IMG/VR virus record: IMGVR_UViG_3300030329_002211
Coordinates: 1 to 31,170 of that record
From: a virus
Reading direction: 5' to 3' (one strand)
DNA length: 31,170 nt
The notes below the pieces were generated by a model. That model did not search any database, was not told where the DNA came from, and saw only the letters and a list, made by a program, of their open reading frames with translations. Positions 3,892-12,910 of the stretch are shown piece after piece; positions within the stretch are counted from its first letter, which is position 1; every line of letters begins with the position of its first letter. The translations under genes were made by a program, and so were the position numbers.

Positions 3892-4265
3892 CTGCCAACT
3901 CCTTTTTTATATTTCTTGGTTTTAGTTGTTCCCCATCCTTCTGGAACATTGGGGATTTCATTTTGTAGCCTTCCCTTAACAGCCAATTCATCAGGAATAT
4001 CAATGTCAATGTACTCCTCATCATCAACTGGTGGAATCGTCTGGGGGTCAGGCTCACTAGAACTCCTTTTTTGATTCGCCAGTTCCATTGAATACCTTAA
4101 TGACCCTAAATCATTTACTGTCTCCATATTGGCTTCTGCAACCTCTATTTGCGTACTAATAGACTTCCTGAGTCTGTTCAGTTGCGTATCCAGTTCATTA
4201 GCCACTTTCATCAATGGCCTTATATGCTCTGGAGCCTTTCGGATTGTTTTACTTCTATATTTCAT
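3882..4265 (-). CDS. Hypothetical coiled-coil protein with acidic linker
   Basis: This 127-aa protein has a basic helical N-terminal half (VANELDTQLNRLRKSISTQI is heptad-like), then a proline/acid-rich linker (PPVDDEEYIDIDIPDEL), then a basic C-terminal tail (TTKTKKYKKGVGRWS). The charge layout suggests a small scaffold or DNA-associated factor, but no family is recognised. It is the first gene after promoter P4, led by TAAGGAGTTAGC, and follows the RusA-unit terminator. Confidence 0.75.
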   Translation of the reverse strand: MKYRSKTIRKAPEHIRPLMKVANELDTQLNRLRKSISTQIEVAEANMETVNDLGSLRYSMELANQKRSSSEPDPQTIPPVDDEEYIDIDIPDELAVKGRLQNEIPNVPEGWGTTKTKKYKKGVGRWS

Positions 4266-4830: not shown

Positions 4831-4972
4831 GTTAACAAAATTTTTTTCTGAATTTTGTTAACTTTATTCTTTAGTATTTTCTTTCTTTTATTCTTTCTTT
4901 CTTTGCTACTTTCTTTCTTTCTTTTTTACCCTGTTAACATTTTCTTTTCTCTATATATGTAATGTTAACGCT
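4831..4972 (-). promoter_or_regulatory. AAAG-repeat leader with a 12-bp inverted repeat and GTTAAC sites
   Basis: The gap upstream of the resolvase gene holds a long purine tract on the transcribed-sense strand, made of repeated AAAG tetramers (about 4862-4928). A perfect 12-bp inverted repeat, GTTAACAAAATT with its complement (4831-4842, 4851-4862), abuts the ribosome site. GTTAAC also occurs at 4933-4938 and 4964-4969, so the tract is flanked by the same hexamer on both sides. It has no U-tract and is AT-rich, so it looks more like an operator or slippage-prone leader than a terminator. Confidence 0.5.
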
Positions 4973-5600: not shown

Positions 5601-6908
5601 TTAAAATGAAGGAAACCATAACGGTACTCCAGATAAATCCCTGTCACAGTACCCACAACTTCTATTATCTATACTGGGTGTGGAGTATACGGCATCCATT
5701 CTGGATAACGTAGTTTTCAAGGCATTCTCATTATCATGCTCCAACTCGTGGGCTATCTCATGAGTTGATAACCCCTTTTCAGAAAATCTCTCATCCTCAA
5801 AAAGTAATGTCACTCTTTTGGGAACTGACAGAGTACCTTTTAACTGGCTGTTTTTAATATCAATTCCCTCAATATTAATTGCCCTGTCCGCCCATGTAAC
5901 TCTAAAAGCAACCGTATCTCTCAGCTTCCCAACATTGGTCTTCCTGTGGTGTAAGGCCACTTCCATATAATTCGACTCTTTTTCCTGATGCTTCTGCAAT
6001 TCAAATGTATTTCTGGGCATATTAACCCAGTAAACAGAGCCAAATGGATTCCTGTTGCTGACCTGCATTGCATTCTTGGTAACGTGTGCCAGAGTCAGAG
6101 TTGTTAAGGGCTTTTCACTATCAGTTAAAGCCCTGAGAGCAGAAAAGAATTTGAGTGTCGCATTGGCGTTCTCTGGTTCTCCACCACAGGCTGGCCCTGC
6201 TGAATCTATCAACAAAAACCTGATATCGTATTCCGCAATCCTGTTTCTAAGTTGCTCCACATCCTGATAGAGAGGCTGAGAGCAGTACCTGTAGTAAATA
6301 TGCCTTGTAGCCCCTTCCAATCCATTGATAATGTCCCTGCTTCTCCTGTAAGTCTCTTCCCATGATGTCTCATAATCGAGAATCATGGCATTCCCACCTT
6401 TAACATCAAAACTGTTGTTAATTCCTATGTTGTTATGGATGGCAGTTGCTATGGATAAACCAAGCATTGATTTCCCAATTCCACCTTCACCATAGAGGAC
6501 TGTCGGAGTTCCCTCATAACATATTCCAGTTACCATCTCAGGCGGTATCTCTGGGGAAGTTCTTTCATTAAGGTCAATGATTGGCTCACCCCTGCGGTGT
6601 TCCCTTAAAACCATCATAGAAACCTGCATCAATCTCTGTTGCCAATCTTCCCTGTTGGATGTTCCGTTCAACTGGGTGATAAGCCCTCTGGGAGAGCGTG
6701 TAAGCGTGTACCTCTGGGGCTGTAATATGTAAGAGCCACCAAGCTCCCCGAAATCCTGTATGAGAATTTCCGCAGTTACGTGACGGTCTCTTTCAGTTTC
6801 GGGAGTATCAATGGTAACTCGCACACCATCGTCCCAATCAATCTGGTACTTTGTGCCGATTTTCTCTAGGTTAGGGGTGGCAAGACCCTCATCTTCATAC
6901 TCATTCAA
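5601..6908 (-). CDS. RepA-like RecA-fold ATPase (probable replicative helicase)
   Basis: At 435 aa it has a RecA-type core of the RepA/AAA_25 kind. Walker A GEGGIGKSML lies at about residues 141-150, a strand with acidic end AMILDYE at about 172-178, and Walker B RFLLIDSAG at about 229-237. TLTLAHVTKN (about 269-278) is followed by FGSVYWVNMPR (about 289-299), like the sensor region of hexameric SF4 ATPases. The C-terminal ~80 residues hold a winged-helix-like segment (GLSTHEIAHELEHDNENALK) and a CGYC pair. It most likely unwinds or loads at the phage origin. Its ATG overlaps the previous stop (ATGA). Confidence 0.8.
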   Translation of the reverse strand: MNEYEDEGLATPNLEKIGTKYQIDWDDGVRVTIDTPETERDRHVTAEILIQDFGELGGSYILQPQRYTLTRSPRGLITQLNGTSNREDWQQRLMQVSMMVLREHRRGEPIIDLNERTSPEIPPEMVTGICYEGTPTVLYGEGGIGKSMLGLSIATAIHNNIGINNSFDVKGGNAMILDYETSWEETYRRSRDIINGLEGATRHIYYRYCSQPLYQDVEQLRNRIAEYDIRFLLIDSAGPACGGEPENANATLKFFSALRALTDSEKPLTTLTLAHVTKNAMQVSNRNPFGSVYWVNMPRNTFELQKHQEKESNYMEVALHHRKTNVGKLRDTVAFRVTWADRAINIEGIDIKNSQLKGTLSVPKRVTLLFEDERFSEKGLSTHEIAHELEHDNENALKTTLSRMDAVYSTPSIDNRSCGYCDRDLSGVPLWFPSF

Positions 6909-7194
6909 TGTTAACTCCTTTTTTAGTTGTCTTCTTTAGACTCTGGGAATTTTGTTGTGGCTGATTATTATAACCATTTTCGGCCTGCTGTTTATCCATC
7001 ACAAGCTCAACCATTTTTTCAAGAGCAGAGAGAAACTCACCCAGAGAAATATCCACTTGCATTTCTCTCATGGTAGCCCATATTTTTGCATTATCTCTAA
7101 GAGTTGCGTGATGAGCGTCCCTCTCCTCTATATACCGTTCTTTCCAGAATCCATCCCAGTTATAGTTGCTCACACTCGACAATCCATCTGGCAA
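6901..7194 (-). CDS. Hypothetical protein upstream of the ATPase
   Basis: A 97-aa (or shorter) helical, Asn/Gln-rich protein: WDGFWKERYIEERDAHHATL, then LGEFLSALEKMVELVMDKQQ. The start is unsure. The TTG at 7194 overlaps the previous gene by 35 bases; an in-frame GTG at 7173 is an alternative. Its end carries the AAAGGAGTTAAC ribosome site of the ATPase and overlaps that start, so the two are coupled. Position suggests a helicase-associated factor; no family recognised. Confidence 0.65.
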   Translation of the reverse strand: MPDGLSSVSNYNWDGFWKERYIEERDAHHATLRDNAKIWATMREMQVDISLGEFLSALEKMVELVMDKQQAENGYNNQPQQNSQSLKKTTKKGVNIE

Positions 7195-7999
7195 AACCTT
7201 CTATTGTTTCATCTGGAAAACGGTCTTCCCATTCCGCCAGAGTGGACAGGCCAATGCCCTTCAGATGTTGCTTCACTCGCTCCTGAGAAATGTCATTGTC
7301 AATTAACCATTCATCAAGTTTCGGACGGTTAATCACTTTACTGGTTGGCGTAAACACTTTGTCAGATTTGTTCCTGACCTGTGTTAACACAGCACCGTCA
7401 ACTGTTAACGCTGACACTAAATCATTGAAGTAAGCAACTGTTCTCTGGTTTAACCAAGTGGCTATTCCTTCAGCAGTTTCTTCCCACCCTTCTTCACATC
7501 CTGCCTGTATGATGGCAGTCCTGTCATTAGAGATTAATTCCCTCCTGAGTTGGGCCATATCCCCAAAGTCCATCCTTGCCAGTTGAGAGGACTTATCAGG
7601 GCTTTCGGGGCTTGCAGTTGGGGCAACAGGCTCTAAATCCCATATATTGCCTGTTTCGGTCTGGTAGAGCGTTTCCGAATGTTCACCAGTAACACCGCTT
7701 ATAGATACTCTGACTATACTCCACCTGTAATTGTAGTTTTGCTCTGGAGTCTTCCCCTGCTTCAATTCACCCCTTTTCAAGGTGACTTTGGCATTCAAAG
7801 TTCCACAGCTTCCATCACAATTGGCCTTCCAATCATCCAACTTGGGACAATGTCCCAGAAGACCTATAGCATTGTATTCTTTCGGGGCAATTGCATCCTC
7901 TATAGGATAGCTCTCCACATACTGGCTCAATGACGGTGCATTAAGCCAGATTCTTTTTCCATCGCTCGCCACAGCGTGGATTACAGCATTAAAATCCAT
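7160..7999 (-). CDS. Hypothetical replication-region protein
   Basis: About 279 aa, beginning MDFNAVIHAVASDGKRIWLN. An N-terminal beta-rich part (GKRIWLNAPSLSQYV, then GTLNAKVTLKRGELKQGK, then WSIVRVSISGVTGE) could be an OB-like or similar nucleic-acid-binding fold with CPKLDDWKANCDGSC as a possible zinc site. It is followed by an acidic/proline linker and a helical C-terminus. I chose ATG 7999, seven bases after AAGGA; TTG 8005 is an alternative. It lies between the HTH gene and the RepA-like ATPase, a common place for single-strand-binding or primase-like partners, but no catalytic motif is seen. Confidence 0.65.
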   Translation of the reverse strand: MDFNAVIHAVASDGKRIWLNAPSLSQYVESYPIEDAIAPKEYNAIGLLGHCPKLDDWKANCDGSCGTLNAKVTLKRGELKQGKTPEQNYNYRWSIVRVSISGVTGEHSETLYQTETGNIWDLEPVAPTASPESPDKSSQLARMDFGDMAQLRRELISNDRTAIIQAGCEEGWEETAEGIATWLNQRTVAYFNDLVSALTVDGAVLTQVRNKSDKVFTPTSKVINRPKLDEWLIDNDISQERVKQHLKGIGLSTLAEWEDRFPDETIEGFARWIVECEQL

Positions 8000-8009
8000 T
8001 TCCAATTCC

Positions 8010-8225
8010 TTAACTCCTTCTAAATGGTTTCGGTATCATCCATATCCCACCACCATTGTGCATGGCAGGCATCAAAACTTTTTCACAGTCTCCAAGCTTG
8101 TCCTTCAGAATCAACTGGTGAACTCTCTGTCTGGAAATGCCGAAATGTTCAGCACACTCCTTCATAGTTCCCCATTGGTCTGGGTCAAACTCTTGGCCTG
8201 TGTTACTAATTATTTTTGAGACCAA
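8010..8225 (-). CDS. Small helix-turn-helix protein
   Basis: A 71-aa protein with a clear HTH at about residues 21-45: TMKECAEHFGISRQRVHQLI, then LKDKLGDCEKVL, as in MerR/Xis-like or plasmid-type DNA-binding domains that use a first-helix ECAEHFGIS. The start is TTG 8225, ten bases after a strong GGAGGTG. It is the first gene of the promoter P5 unit that includes the replication genes. It is the best visible candidate for the regulator of the shared TTGACA dyad promoters, which is inference. Confidence 0.75.
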   Translation of the reverse strand: MVSKIISNTGQEFDPDQWGTMKECAEHFGISRQRVHQLILKDKLGDCEKVLMPAMHNGGGIWMIPKPFRRS

Positions 8226-8276: not shown

Positions 8277-8305
8277 ATTTTACTTGGTATATTGACAGTT
8301 GTCAA
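8277..8305 (-). promoter_or_regulatory. Promoter P5 (perfect dyad) abutting the pentamer array
   Basis: -35 TTGACA at 8305-8300 and -10 TAAAAT at 8282-8277, spaced 17, with the full dyad TTGACAACTGTCAA. The last TGNNN pentamer of the array ends at 8306, so the array runs without a gap into the -35 box. The leader 8226-8276 holds a spare AAAAAGGAGTTA and a ten-codon TTG frame (LEVIMNWSQK) before the HTH gene. Confidence 0.85.
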
Positions 8306-8860
8306 TTACACCTCAACTCACATCACCTCACTCCTCGACTCCACCGCAACTCAATTTCAACTCACCTCATCACTCGGCTCCAAACCAAACCACAACAACA
8401 CACCCCATTACTCGCATTCATTTCACATCACCTCACCACTCGACATCAATCTAGTTCATGCCATACCACTTCACCCCTCGACATCTGCTCACGTCACAAC
8501 ATCCCACATCTCGACTTCATTTCAAGCCAGTTCATTGCATACCACGGCACCCCTCGACATCAGTCCACCGCACTCCACTCCTCGACTCCATTCCACTTCA
8601 TTTCAACTCACATCTCGACATCAGTTCACCTCATTCCACAACATCCGACTTCATCCCTCGACTGCAAATCATTACAATTTCACTCCATCTCTCGTCTTCA
8701 ATTCACACCATCTAATTACATTACTCGGCTTCACTCCATATCAGCCCAGAGCAATCCTCGGCTCCATTACAAGTAATATCAAATCTCGGCTTCAAGGCAT
8801 GACCTATCAGACCAATTCTCGGCTCCAAGCCAAGTCACAACAACACACCCCTCGTCTACA
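8306..8860 (-). repeat. Pentamer (TGNNN)n array punctuated by 16 TGRWGYCGAG-like cores
   Basis: Read on the minus strand, this gap is almost wholly TGNNN pentamers, grouped between 16 cores ending in CGAG (plus-strand CTCG at 8334, 8373, 8411, 8439, 8477, 8510, 8553, 8581, 8614, 8657, 8691, 8724, 8757, 8785, 8818, 8851). Core-to-core distances are 39, 38, 28, 38, 33, 43, 28, 33, 43, 34, 33, 33, 28, 33, 33: all 5n+3, with two having one extra base. Each unit is CGAG, three linker bases without C, then 3-6 TGNNN and a TGRWGYCGAG-like core. By my count 78 of 84 pentamers keep TG, while the NNN vary freely. The 5' end overlaps the stop codon of the RAMP-like gene. This is not a CRISPR, iteron or microsatellite of any kind I know. 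Confidence 0.93.
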
Positions 8861-9554
8861 CTTCCACAAACTGCTTTATCTCGTAGCGACCCCAACCCTG
8901 TGACCGTTCAGCACCCATGCCATGTACAGAGCCATATTCCAGTATGCTCTCAATATGACTCATATTTATGATGCCGTCATTCAACAGTTTTATTGTCACT
9001 TCAAAATACGGATTTATCACGTAATCAATGTGCTTGATGGCAGAGCGTGGCCCTTGCCTAGTCATCACCTGTATATACCGCACTTCTGTGTCCACAACCT
9101 CTTTATAAGGCTCCCCATCCTCTTTATATAGAGGAATAAGGTCATCCATCACATAAAGCCTGTTTACAACCTTAGAACGGAAGTTTTTAACATCCTTATG
9201 AAAGTTCTGGACTTGCAAAGCACAGTCCTTTAAATGCCCCCTGACAGAGCGGCCTTCATAGACCAGAGTGTTAGTCACGTTGTGCTTAAAAGTAGACCAA
9301 CTGGGGATGTAGTCCTCATCATCCTCATCCTGTACATCCACCTGACTTACCACCTTGTCCACCAGTTCCTCTACTGGGATTGCGTCCTCTGGTTTCTTGG
9401 TGGGCATTCGATGCTCTAACATCGCCCTGATTTCTGTTTCACTTCTGGGCAACTGCCCACCGAAAAGGCCGTCAATCTGAAACCCTAGCTTGTAGATTTT
9501 CCAGATTGCTTCCTTCTTTTTGCTCTTCACTTCAACCTTAATTTCTTTAGCCAT
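8856..9554 (-). CDS. RAMP (Cas7/Cas6-like)-fold protein, array-associated
   Basis: This 232-aa protein begins with a basic segment and a strand-helix region (WKIYKLGFQIDGLFGGQL). An acidic linker follows (about residues 60-82), then YIPSWSTFKHN and TLVYEGRSVRGHLKDCALQV, recalling the SxKGxLR loop of Cas7-type proteins. The C-terminus has FEVTIKLLNDGIINMSHIES followed by GSVHGMGAERSQGWGRYEI (about 208-226), a GxGxxRxxGxGR motif typical of RAMP RNA-binding proteins. RAMPs bind or cleave RNA, often as filaments. The gene is led by AAAAAGGAGTATTA, preceded by a structured RNA, and its stop codon lies inside the first core of the pentamer array. The fold call rests on motifs only; the family is not named here. 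Confidence 0.6.
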   Translation of the reverse strand: MAKEIKVEVKSKKKEAIWKIYKLGFQIDGLFGGQLPRSETEIRAMLEHRMPTKKPEDAIPVEELVDKVVSQVDVQDEDDEDYIPSWSTFKHNVTNTLVYEGRSVRGHLKDCALQVQNFHKDVKNFRSKVVNRLYVMDDLIPLYKEDGEPYKEVVDTEVRYIQVMTRQGPRSAIKHIDYVINPYFEVTIKLLNDGIINMSHIESILEYGSVHGMGAERSQGWGRYEIKQFVEV

Positions 9555-11683: not shown

Positions 11684-12910
11684 TCAAGCCAACGCCACTC
11701 TATTTACTATTGTTTGGGCTATCCCATTGAACGTATCATGTTTCTTAACTGTAGCCTTTACTCTGATAATTTCTCCCTCATTTGCCTCTAGTTTTTTAGA
11801 GCCAAACCAGACTATCTGGTTGCCATTCATATTGAACTTATGAAGAACTGATACACCAAATTGGCTCTCGATGTATTTCACCTCAGTTAGAACTACGTTA
11901 TCAAAAACCTCACGCTTTCCAATCTCACCCATGTGAACAGAGGTGTCTACCTGCTCTTTTCGGGCTTCTTCCCTTGCTTTTGTATTTATCATGTTCTGGT
12001 AAGCGATAACACCGCTAACTGCTATTCCTATAGTCCTGCTTGTAGCAAAGCCTTTCTCAGCAATAATTCCAAGATTGTTGAGGTAATCTGTATCAGACCC
12101 TTTTAAAGTTAGCATCCAATCCTTAACTACTTGTGCCTCTGGGCTAAGAGTAGCTTTTGATGTGTTCTTTAATCCTATAAGCACTTTCTGCTTGGTGGTG
12201 TCCTCATCTGTGTAAGAGGTAGTCCAATCATTTGCCATGCCTACTGAAACCCATCCATTGGTTTCCACTTCCCTGTGAGCCAATTCTAAAACGGTGTCTA
12301 AATCAAAAGTTTCTACTGCTTGCCCATAAATGCTGTGAGTGGTTTCAAAATCTGCATCGTTTATAAACGTATGTAAACTTGTCATGTAAGATGCAATTTT
12401 GTTAGGGGAATCCCATCCAAGAAAGTCCTTAATACAAGTTGTGCCAATAACTTTATGGCTACCATCAAGATGCTCTACTATAAAAGCCCCTTTCCTATTC
12501 CTCTTGAGTCCACAATGGTCACATTCTCCATTTTCTACCCTTGCCCTCTCATCATCAGATGCGTTAGCGTGTCCACCAAATTCCATGCCATCTCTGGTTA
12601 CATATACTGTAATAGACCATCCTTTTAGGCTTGGCCCCTGTCCTAAGACTTTAACGTCTACGAACTCAATATTCCTTAGTTTTAAAAACTTTTGATGAGT
12701 AGTGGGCTGACACCCACAGTTGTTATCATGGTGGTGGTCTAGATTCCCATATTCATCAACAACATAGGTTTTAGAATATGTCTCAGAAACTATTTCCATA
12801 GTAGGTAAGTCACATCCTAGTTTTTCTGCTCTTTTTGCAAGTTTTTCAATCTTGCGTTCTAGGGCAAACTTGTTTGCTGTAGGGATACTGAAAATTTCCT
12901 TACCTGTCAT
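11684..12910 (-). CDS. Zinc and OB-like hypothetical phage protein
   Basis: 408 aa. An N-terminal helical region precedes a His/Cys-rich stretch (HHHDNNCGCQ near residue 60). CDHCGLKRNRKGAFIVEH (about 134-151) is followed by VIGTTCIKDFLGW, giving four cysteines of a zinc-binding module that I associate with large uncharacterised phage and plasmid proteins. The C-terminus (GNQIVWFGSKKLEANEGEII, then RVKATVKKHDTFNGIAQTI) looks like an OB-fold, suggesting nucleic-acid binding. Led by AAAAAGGAGTTAGC behind promoter P8. Function unknown. Confidence 0.75.
   Translation of the reverse strand: MTGKEIFSIPTANKFALERKIEKLAKRAEKLGCDLPTMEIVSETYSKTYVVDEYGNLDHHHDNNCGCQPTTHQKFLKLRNIEFVDVKVLGQGPSLKGWSITVYVTRDGMEFGGHANASDDERARVENGECDHCGLKRNRKGAFIVEHLDGSHKVIGTTCIKDFLGWDSPNKIASYMTSLHTFINDADFETTHSIYGQAVETFDLDTVLELAHREVETNGWVSVGMANDWTTSYTDEDTTKQKVLIGLKNTSKATLSPEAQVVKDWMLTLKGSDTDYLNNLGIIAEKGFATSRTIGIAVSGVIAYQNMINTKAREEARKEQVDTSVHMGEIGKREVFDNVVLTEVKYIESQFGVSVLHKFNMNGNQIVWFGSKKLEANEGEIIRVKATVKKHDTFNGIAQTIVNRVALA

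Follow-up and report, generated by a model that had tools for sequence, protein, structure and literature searches.

A TG-paced pentamer array beside a phage RAMP gene, a probable guide-RNA locus of the VIPR type

The window analysed here, the whole 31,170-nucleotide stretch of the IMG/VR virus record IMGVR_UViG_3300030329_002211, is a tailed-phage contig with minus-strand genes for terminase, head and tail proteins, a RusA-like resolvase and an AAA_25 helicase. On the same strand it carries an array of TGNNN pentamers next to a gene for a 232-aa protein of the RAMP superfamily. We consider it highly probable that the array is a series of tandem guide RNAs of an RNA-guided DNA-recognition system of the VIPR type (Viral Interference Programmable Repeat), in a TG-type variant. 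This assignment is carried by the array itself and its five-base phase, by its linkage to a Cas7-fold protein, by its wide conservation, and by period-3 matches of guides from related loci to genes of rival phages.

VIPR, as described in a preprint of April/June 2026 (PMC13142463), consists of a phage RAMP protein, Vipr, and an RNA called vrRNA, and was described for SUSP1 and a P. fulva prophage. According to the same text, its guides are built from YNNGG pentamers in tandem, in which the NN dinucleotides serve to read double-stranded DNA non-contiguously; one target base is skipped at each step, usually the wobble base of a codon, on both strands, and the system represses genes and acts against phages (PMC13142463). 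The published pentamers were visible when we inspected the SUSP1 locus. The original prediction had called the array unlike any repeat class. This no longer holds, since VIPR vrRNAs, with tandem GGY/NN pentamers and a phage RAMP protein, share its logic (PMC13142463).

The array and the adjoining RAMP gene

The main features are the following.

8306 to 8855, minus strand: putative guide-RNA array, 15 core-bounded units of the form AGNNN(TGNNN)n TGRWG YCG plus one terminal unit, with 16 CG/AG junctions
8512 to 8554, minus strand: one of the two longest units, AGGGG TGCCG TGGTA TGCAA TGAAC TGGCT TGAAA TGAAG TCG
8616 to 8658, minus strand: the other longest unit, AGGGA TGAAG TCGGA TGTTG TGGAA TGAGG TGAAC TGATG TCG; no target found
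8856 to 9554, minus strand: vipr-like gene for the 232-aa protein, a single RAMP with a Cas7/Csm3 fold (AlphaFold2, Foldseek, VIA-align) and the G-loop HGMGAERSQGWGRY

The array is real, conserved and functional-looking. It lies between the 232-aa gene and a small helix-turn-helix (HTH) gene (8010-8225); read on the minus strand, it begins right at the 232-aa gene's stop codon and runs up to the palindrome TTGACAACTGTCAA. Its in-phase TG count was far above chance, as the original prediction had claimed: the minus strand of 8306-8860 held 55 lag-5 TG..TG pairs, compared with a mean of 16.7 (sd 3.5) and a maximum of 30 in 2000 dinucleotide-preserving shuffles. In 55 inner pentamers from 13 cleanly parsed window units, T occupied its fixed position in 98% and G in 93%, and the three free positions were mixed (A.33-.40, C.09-.16, G.22-.35, T.16-.27), so that the description of TG as held and NNN as free was borne out. 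The five-base phase, too, was retained in relatives (T 92% and G 99% over 1450 inner pentamers of other phages, from units preselected for at least 70% TG); neither of the two outcomes that the original prediction had named as refuting it occurred. The sixteen CGAG cores were recovered, the array proper being set at 8306-8855. The proposed unit grammar stood for pentamers and cores, but not for its NNN 'linker', which is not a separate element: the AG of CGAG opens an in-phase pentamer AGNNN, and the full unit reads AGNNN(TGNNN)n TGRWG YCG. Window units are 28, 33, 38 or 43 nt long (3+5n), with two longer by 1 nt. Tandem Repeats Finder called nothing in the array region, an Rfam search of the array gave no match, and the array contained no near-identical direct repeats around contiguous unique spacers. 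As had been argued, this is a selected pattern and no microsatellite, nor is it a copied repeat of the CRISPR type.

The original prediction made no connection between the array and the adjoining RAMP gene. The AlphaFold2 model of the 232-aa protein reached a pLDDT of 93, and its best solved structures in Foldseek were all Cas7-family RAMPs (type VII Cas7, type III-A Csm3; E 8e-8); VIA-align superposed it on Csm3 with Z 12.7 over 162 residues. The second BFVD match was a siphovirus 'Cas system-associated RAMP superfamily protein', and Pfam gave a weak Cas6_C match under the cutoff. The single RRM-like core and the G-loop of VIPR effectors were both present, as seen in the model and its comparison with Csm3 and Cas7. 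Residues H107, K109, K174 and H211 are invariant in the family, as is a loop YGxxHGxxxxR...G.Y; the invariant histidines are missing from SUSP1-type Viprs. Comparison of the 232-aa protein with SUSP1 Vipr as single sequences was weak and that of profiles better, hhalign aligning the two families via the G-loop (E 7e-4, probability 26%). The two families are likely homologous, unproven as this is on sequence alone. We propose that the 232-aa protein acts as the guide-RNA-binding effector. No further cas-like gene was found among the window proteins tested.

Array and protein gene were found together well beyond the window. A degenerate array pattern recovered 34 stretches in viral contigs, mostly multi-unit and of the same architecture, and a homologue of the 232-aa protein was encoded near the array in 29 of them. 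The search in the opposite direction, from protein to array, is the stronger test of linkage. A single-sequence search for the protein in viral contigs was unsuccessful, but with a protein alignment as sole query 68 loci were found, 65 viral and three in bacterial genomes (Dehalococcoidia, Phycisphaerales and Elusimicrobia assemblies). A dense TGNNN array, defined as at least 8 lag-5 TG pairs per 200 nt (shuffles reach at most 7), was present in 62 of the 68, always on the strand of vipr and in nearly all cases no further than about 1 kb away. Of the six other loci, two were truncated by a contig end. Searches of phage and plasmid collections for close relatives, at the DNA or protein level, gave none or one weak match.

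The 232-aa gene was absent from all 11 kin records of the window's phage, which were found via portal or helicase. In kin phage L036, which lacks the vipr gene, the genes that flank the module in the window (11684-12910 and 8010-8225) are directly adjacent, and vipr gene and array therefore behave as an inserted cassette. Within the array, too, there is modular change: the arrays of L010 and of L015/L052 were near-identical but for one whole unit, which indicates that units are gained or lost as modules. Homologous units formed too few pairs to yield position-wise substitution rates. The CGAG core is not invariant across the family, since in a Phycisphaerales array (L041, 6654-6890) TGNNN pentamers were seen with the junction TGATCGGCG in place of CGAG. 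The loci of other Vipr proteins showed still different pentamer scaffolds. In L048 (MT835477, a human gut phage) an intergenic array upstream of a RAMP homologue seemingly has only one G per five bases, possibly another scaffold, and upstream of vipr in L034 there is a long GGANNC hexamer-periodic stretch that possibly codes for a glycine-rich protein.

Reading rule and targets in related phages

From 72 non-redundant loci we extracted 310 distinct units, and compared 136 longer ones with viral DNA, its arrays masked, under 13 reading rules; shuffles of pentamer order served as control. For units of at least 8 pentamers, the rule that reads a and b of TGabc at a target period of 3 gave 7 perfect matches, while each of the 6 shuffles gave 0, and so did all 12 remaining rules. 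These seven matches stem from two units alone. Target periods of 2, 4, 5 or 6, or the reading of bc or ac, showed no excess of perfect matches and were discarded, as was a 21/21 match under 'abc, period 5' (L102 to L107), which reflects similarity between two arrays and no target. Under the supported rule each pentamer reads with the two bases that follow (A/T)G, passes over the third and advances three target bases; in the matches of relatives the skipped base fell at the codon wobble position, on both strands. Base c agreed in about half of cases among matches picked on a and b, and is probably not read. On whether the last pentamer, TGRWG, is read, the matches gave mixed signals. Neither an open coding frame nor TA depletion in the guide triplets was discriminating. 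The rule was borne out in the sister subclade, whose units are longer, and would extend to the window.

The decoded guides spell conserved phage protein motifs. One unit (L096:3992) concatenates to CAT GGG TAC GCG GGT GAG CGG AGA GAC GGA, that is HGYAGERRDG, which is the RAMP protein's own G-loop. This unit matched the vipr genes of 5 other phages at 20/20 bases of codon positions 1 and 2 (E 2e-6) and those of ten more at 19/20. The vipr gene of its own locus encodes HGYAGERSDG at 3897-3926, but agrees with the guide at just 17/20, because Arg and Ser are spelled AGA and TCC; L096 thus apparently evades its own guide through synonymous recoding of vipr. A second unit (L100:4045), read on the other strand, gives VTDPPYG, motif IV of DNA methyltransferases, and matched three methyltransferase genes at 16/16 (L078, L108, L140).

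A prospective test came from L021:12510, which was decoded antisense as FVLLGGREGIG, a helicase Walker A motif, ahead of any known target; the peptide decoded before the scan was LLGGREGIGK. When 20 of the bases it reads (10 pentamers) were scanned against all viral contigs, a single contig matched, at 20/20. About 0.02 matches were expected by chance, as scaled from a 14-base pattern that had 65. The matched site is in frame and falls on the Walker A motif of a primase-helicase (...LALLGGREGIGKST...), where the bases passed over are those at wobble positions. Weaker matches (16-17 of 18-20), also in wobble phase, fell in head-protease and major-capsid genes. Apart from these matches, a near-same guide (CAC TTG TCG GCG AAG TYT TCG) was seen in distinct phages (L099, L022/L084 and L031/L102), in which the scaffold T/G had changed and the read bases were mostly kept.

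Relation to VIPR and alternative explanations

By its logic the array belongs with VIPR, and probably also by descent. Both have a single phage RAMP beside a non-coding 5-nt repeat array with fixed and hypervariable positions, which is seen in the window as well; relatives of the window further share period-3 targets on both strands with a skipped wobble base, and targets that are competing phages and other VIPR systems. The scaffolds differ, GGY+NN in VIPR and (A/T)G+NNN here. The strict GGY/NN does not describe our array, but the preprint distinguishes seven types with GGY/NN 'or a related consensus' and also speaks of staggered arrays (PMC13142463). Guides of the characterised type II consist of 9-16 repeats and end in an invariable, structured 3' tail, and architectures differ between types (PMC13142463). 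Guides here have 4-12 pentamers, and in place of one long structured 3' tail, many tandem guides are joined by an 8-nt TGRWGYCG/AG junction. On the published description, this mismatch in tail and repeat number excludes type II, not VIPR overall. The TG/NNN scaffold, the short tandem guides and the CGAG junction are probably new with respect to VIPR as published.

Several results weigh against the assignment. Neither the GGY/NN scaffold nor the structured 3' tail described for VIPR is found here, and the profile similarity of the 232-aa protein to SUSP1 Vipr is weak (26%, E 7e-4). For the window's own guides no significant target turned up, whether among kin genomes or across 1.3 Mb of phage DNA, and guides of the window's subclade alone, set against kin phages under the same rule (ab, 3), did not differ significantly from shuffles (52 versus 30-64). 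A second prospective scan, with a guide from L091, found 0 matches in viral contigs. Furthermore, each unit of the window reads no more than 4-7 dinucleotides, a low specificity for a single guide. The 14-base pattern of the unit at 8512-8554 was matched exactly 65 times in viral contigs and 0 times in close kin, and its GPVQNAK-type matches, considered as targets, look like chance.

A structural or decoy RNA, serving as scaffold or sponge under a RAMP filament with a 5-nt footprint and carrying uninformative NNN, would fit the window's own units without a target, the five-base rhythm and an RNA structure at the level of shuffles (z -0.64). We nevertheless hold it to be very unlikely, as the NNN of relatives spell conserved motifs of phage proteins, and their matches to rival genes exceed those of shuffles. 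The same matches speak against a DNA-level binding array (iterons, a centromere or a replication origin) that would present TG at each half helical turn to a phage DNA-binding protein: a DNA iteron leaves unexplained why its free bases match foreign genes at period 3. The intergenic position near a replication operon, with HTH and helicase genes and a promoter, would suit such an array, but its strand was always that of vipr and its partner is of an RNA-binding RAMP fold, with no shared DNA-binding neighbour, so that we give this explanation very little weight.

The 232-aa protein resembles Csm3 and type VII Cas7 in its RAMP fold, its glycine-rich loop and its best solved-structure matches. 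Together with the unit-wise architecture and the unit gain or loss between L010 and L015, this might recall a true CRISPR array or a derivative of one. Class 1 CRISPR systems with Cas7, however, have a cas operon, of which the window proteins tested included no further member, and CRISPR repeats, which are missing here, the longest repeat is about 8-10 nt, the would-be spacers are non-contiguous and interrupted every 3 nt, and Rfam recognised nothing; a CRISPR origin of the array is extremely unlikely. The Cas7 backbone step is 6 nt with one flipped base, unlike the guide step of 5 nt with a target step of 3 nt here. TIGR-Tas and similar systems, a lead only, have phage-linked tandem guide arrays with other protein folds and another repeat logic. 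A protein-coding repeat, finally, would have a 203-aa plus-strand reading frame at its disposal (8292-8903, open throughout), but unit lengths of 28, 33, 38 and 43 break the codon frame, the constraint is 5-periodic and not 3-periodic, and relatives keep the pentamer phase despite unit lengths that are not multiples of 3. We regard its probability as negligible.

For the VIPR-type guide system we infer transcription, processing, binding by the protein, coating and silencing in the following way. The array RNA would be made together with or after the RAMP gene, and units would be released by cutting at the CG/AG junctions; self-processing by the RAMP is a fair guess, because of the invariant histidines that SUSP1-type Viprs lack. 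The protein would polymerise along the RNA, one subunit per pentamer, gripping the fixed (A/T)G and the preceding base, which would remain unread, and leaving the two bases after G to pair with target DNA. Five guide nucleotides would thus correspond to three target nucleotides, a single codon whose wobble base is the one left out, and loaded guides would silence or block genes of competing phages. More tentatively, with slightly less than even confidence, we suggest an undescribed VIPR type in which UG-paced short guides are cut from long tandem arrays at CG/AG by the RAMP itself (H107, K109, K174, H211) and target conserved codons in the vipr, replication and capsid genes of rivals, the own vipr being recoded at six-fold-degenerate codons against the own guide.

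Sequence data by themselves indicate that the non-contiguous guide code of one VIPR clade extends to a distant clade with another scaffold. Its occurrence on a second scaffold makes '5 guide bases per codon, wobble ignored' look general. The locus would provide a minimal candidate for RNA-guided DNA binding, 232 aa with guides of ~30-40 nt, and about 60 further loci are at hand. The guides would also draw a map of phage-on-phage warfare, aimed as they appear to be at catalytic motifs that are hard to mutate, where synonymous wobble changes would give the target no escape. The findings may further bear on the origin of Cas7 proteins.

Neighbouring elements in the window

Beyond the array and its RAMP gene, the following elements were noted.

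8277 to 8305, minus strand: array end with the palindrome TTGACAACTGTCAA (8305-8292) and TAAAAT (8282-8277), a TTGACA-N17-TAAAAT promoter-like site of the next operon
8010 to 8225, minus strand: small HTH protein, first gene past the array, followed by 7160-8005 and the AAA_25 helicase (5601-6908)
172, 2725, 3579, 4311, 8292, 10132, 11646, 12967, 13405 and 31136, minus strand: copies of TTGACAACTGTMAA from a motif scan of the window

The palindrome TTGACAACTGTCAA coincides with the -35 region of the promoter-like site. The ten window copies of TTGACAACTGTMAA, with at most one mismatch and all on the minus strand, compare with 0.06 expected, and TTGACAACTGTMAA is predicted to be a phage-wide promoter/operator element with the palindrome built in over the -35 box. 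The HTH gene, 7160-8005 and the AAA_25 helicase probably stand outside the guide system. A companion gene of 70-126 aa overlaps or follows vipr in 32 of 56 loci (for example L011 6177 and L024 8674) and is a candidate for vap; one representative had no Pfam match. It has no counterpart in the window, and no vap gene was recognised there. A short TTTC-rich tandem repeat lies at 4867-4924 of the window.
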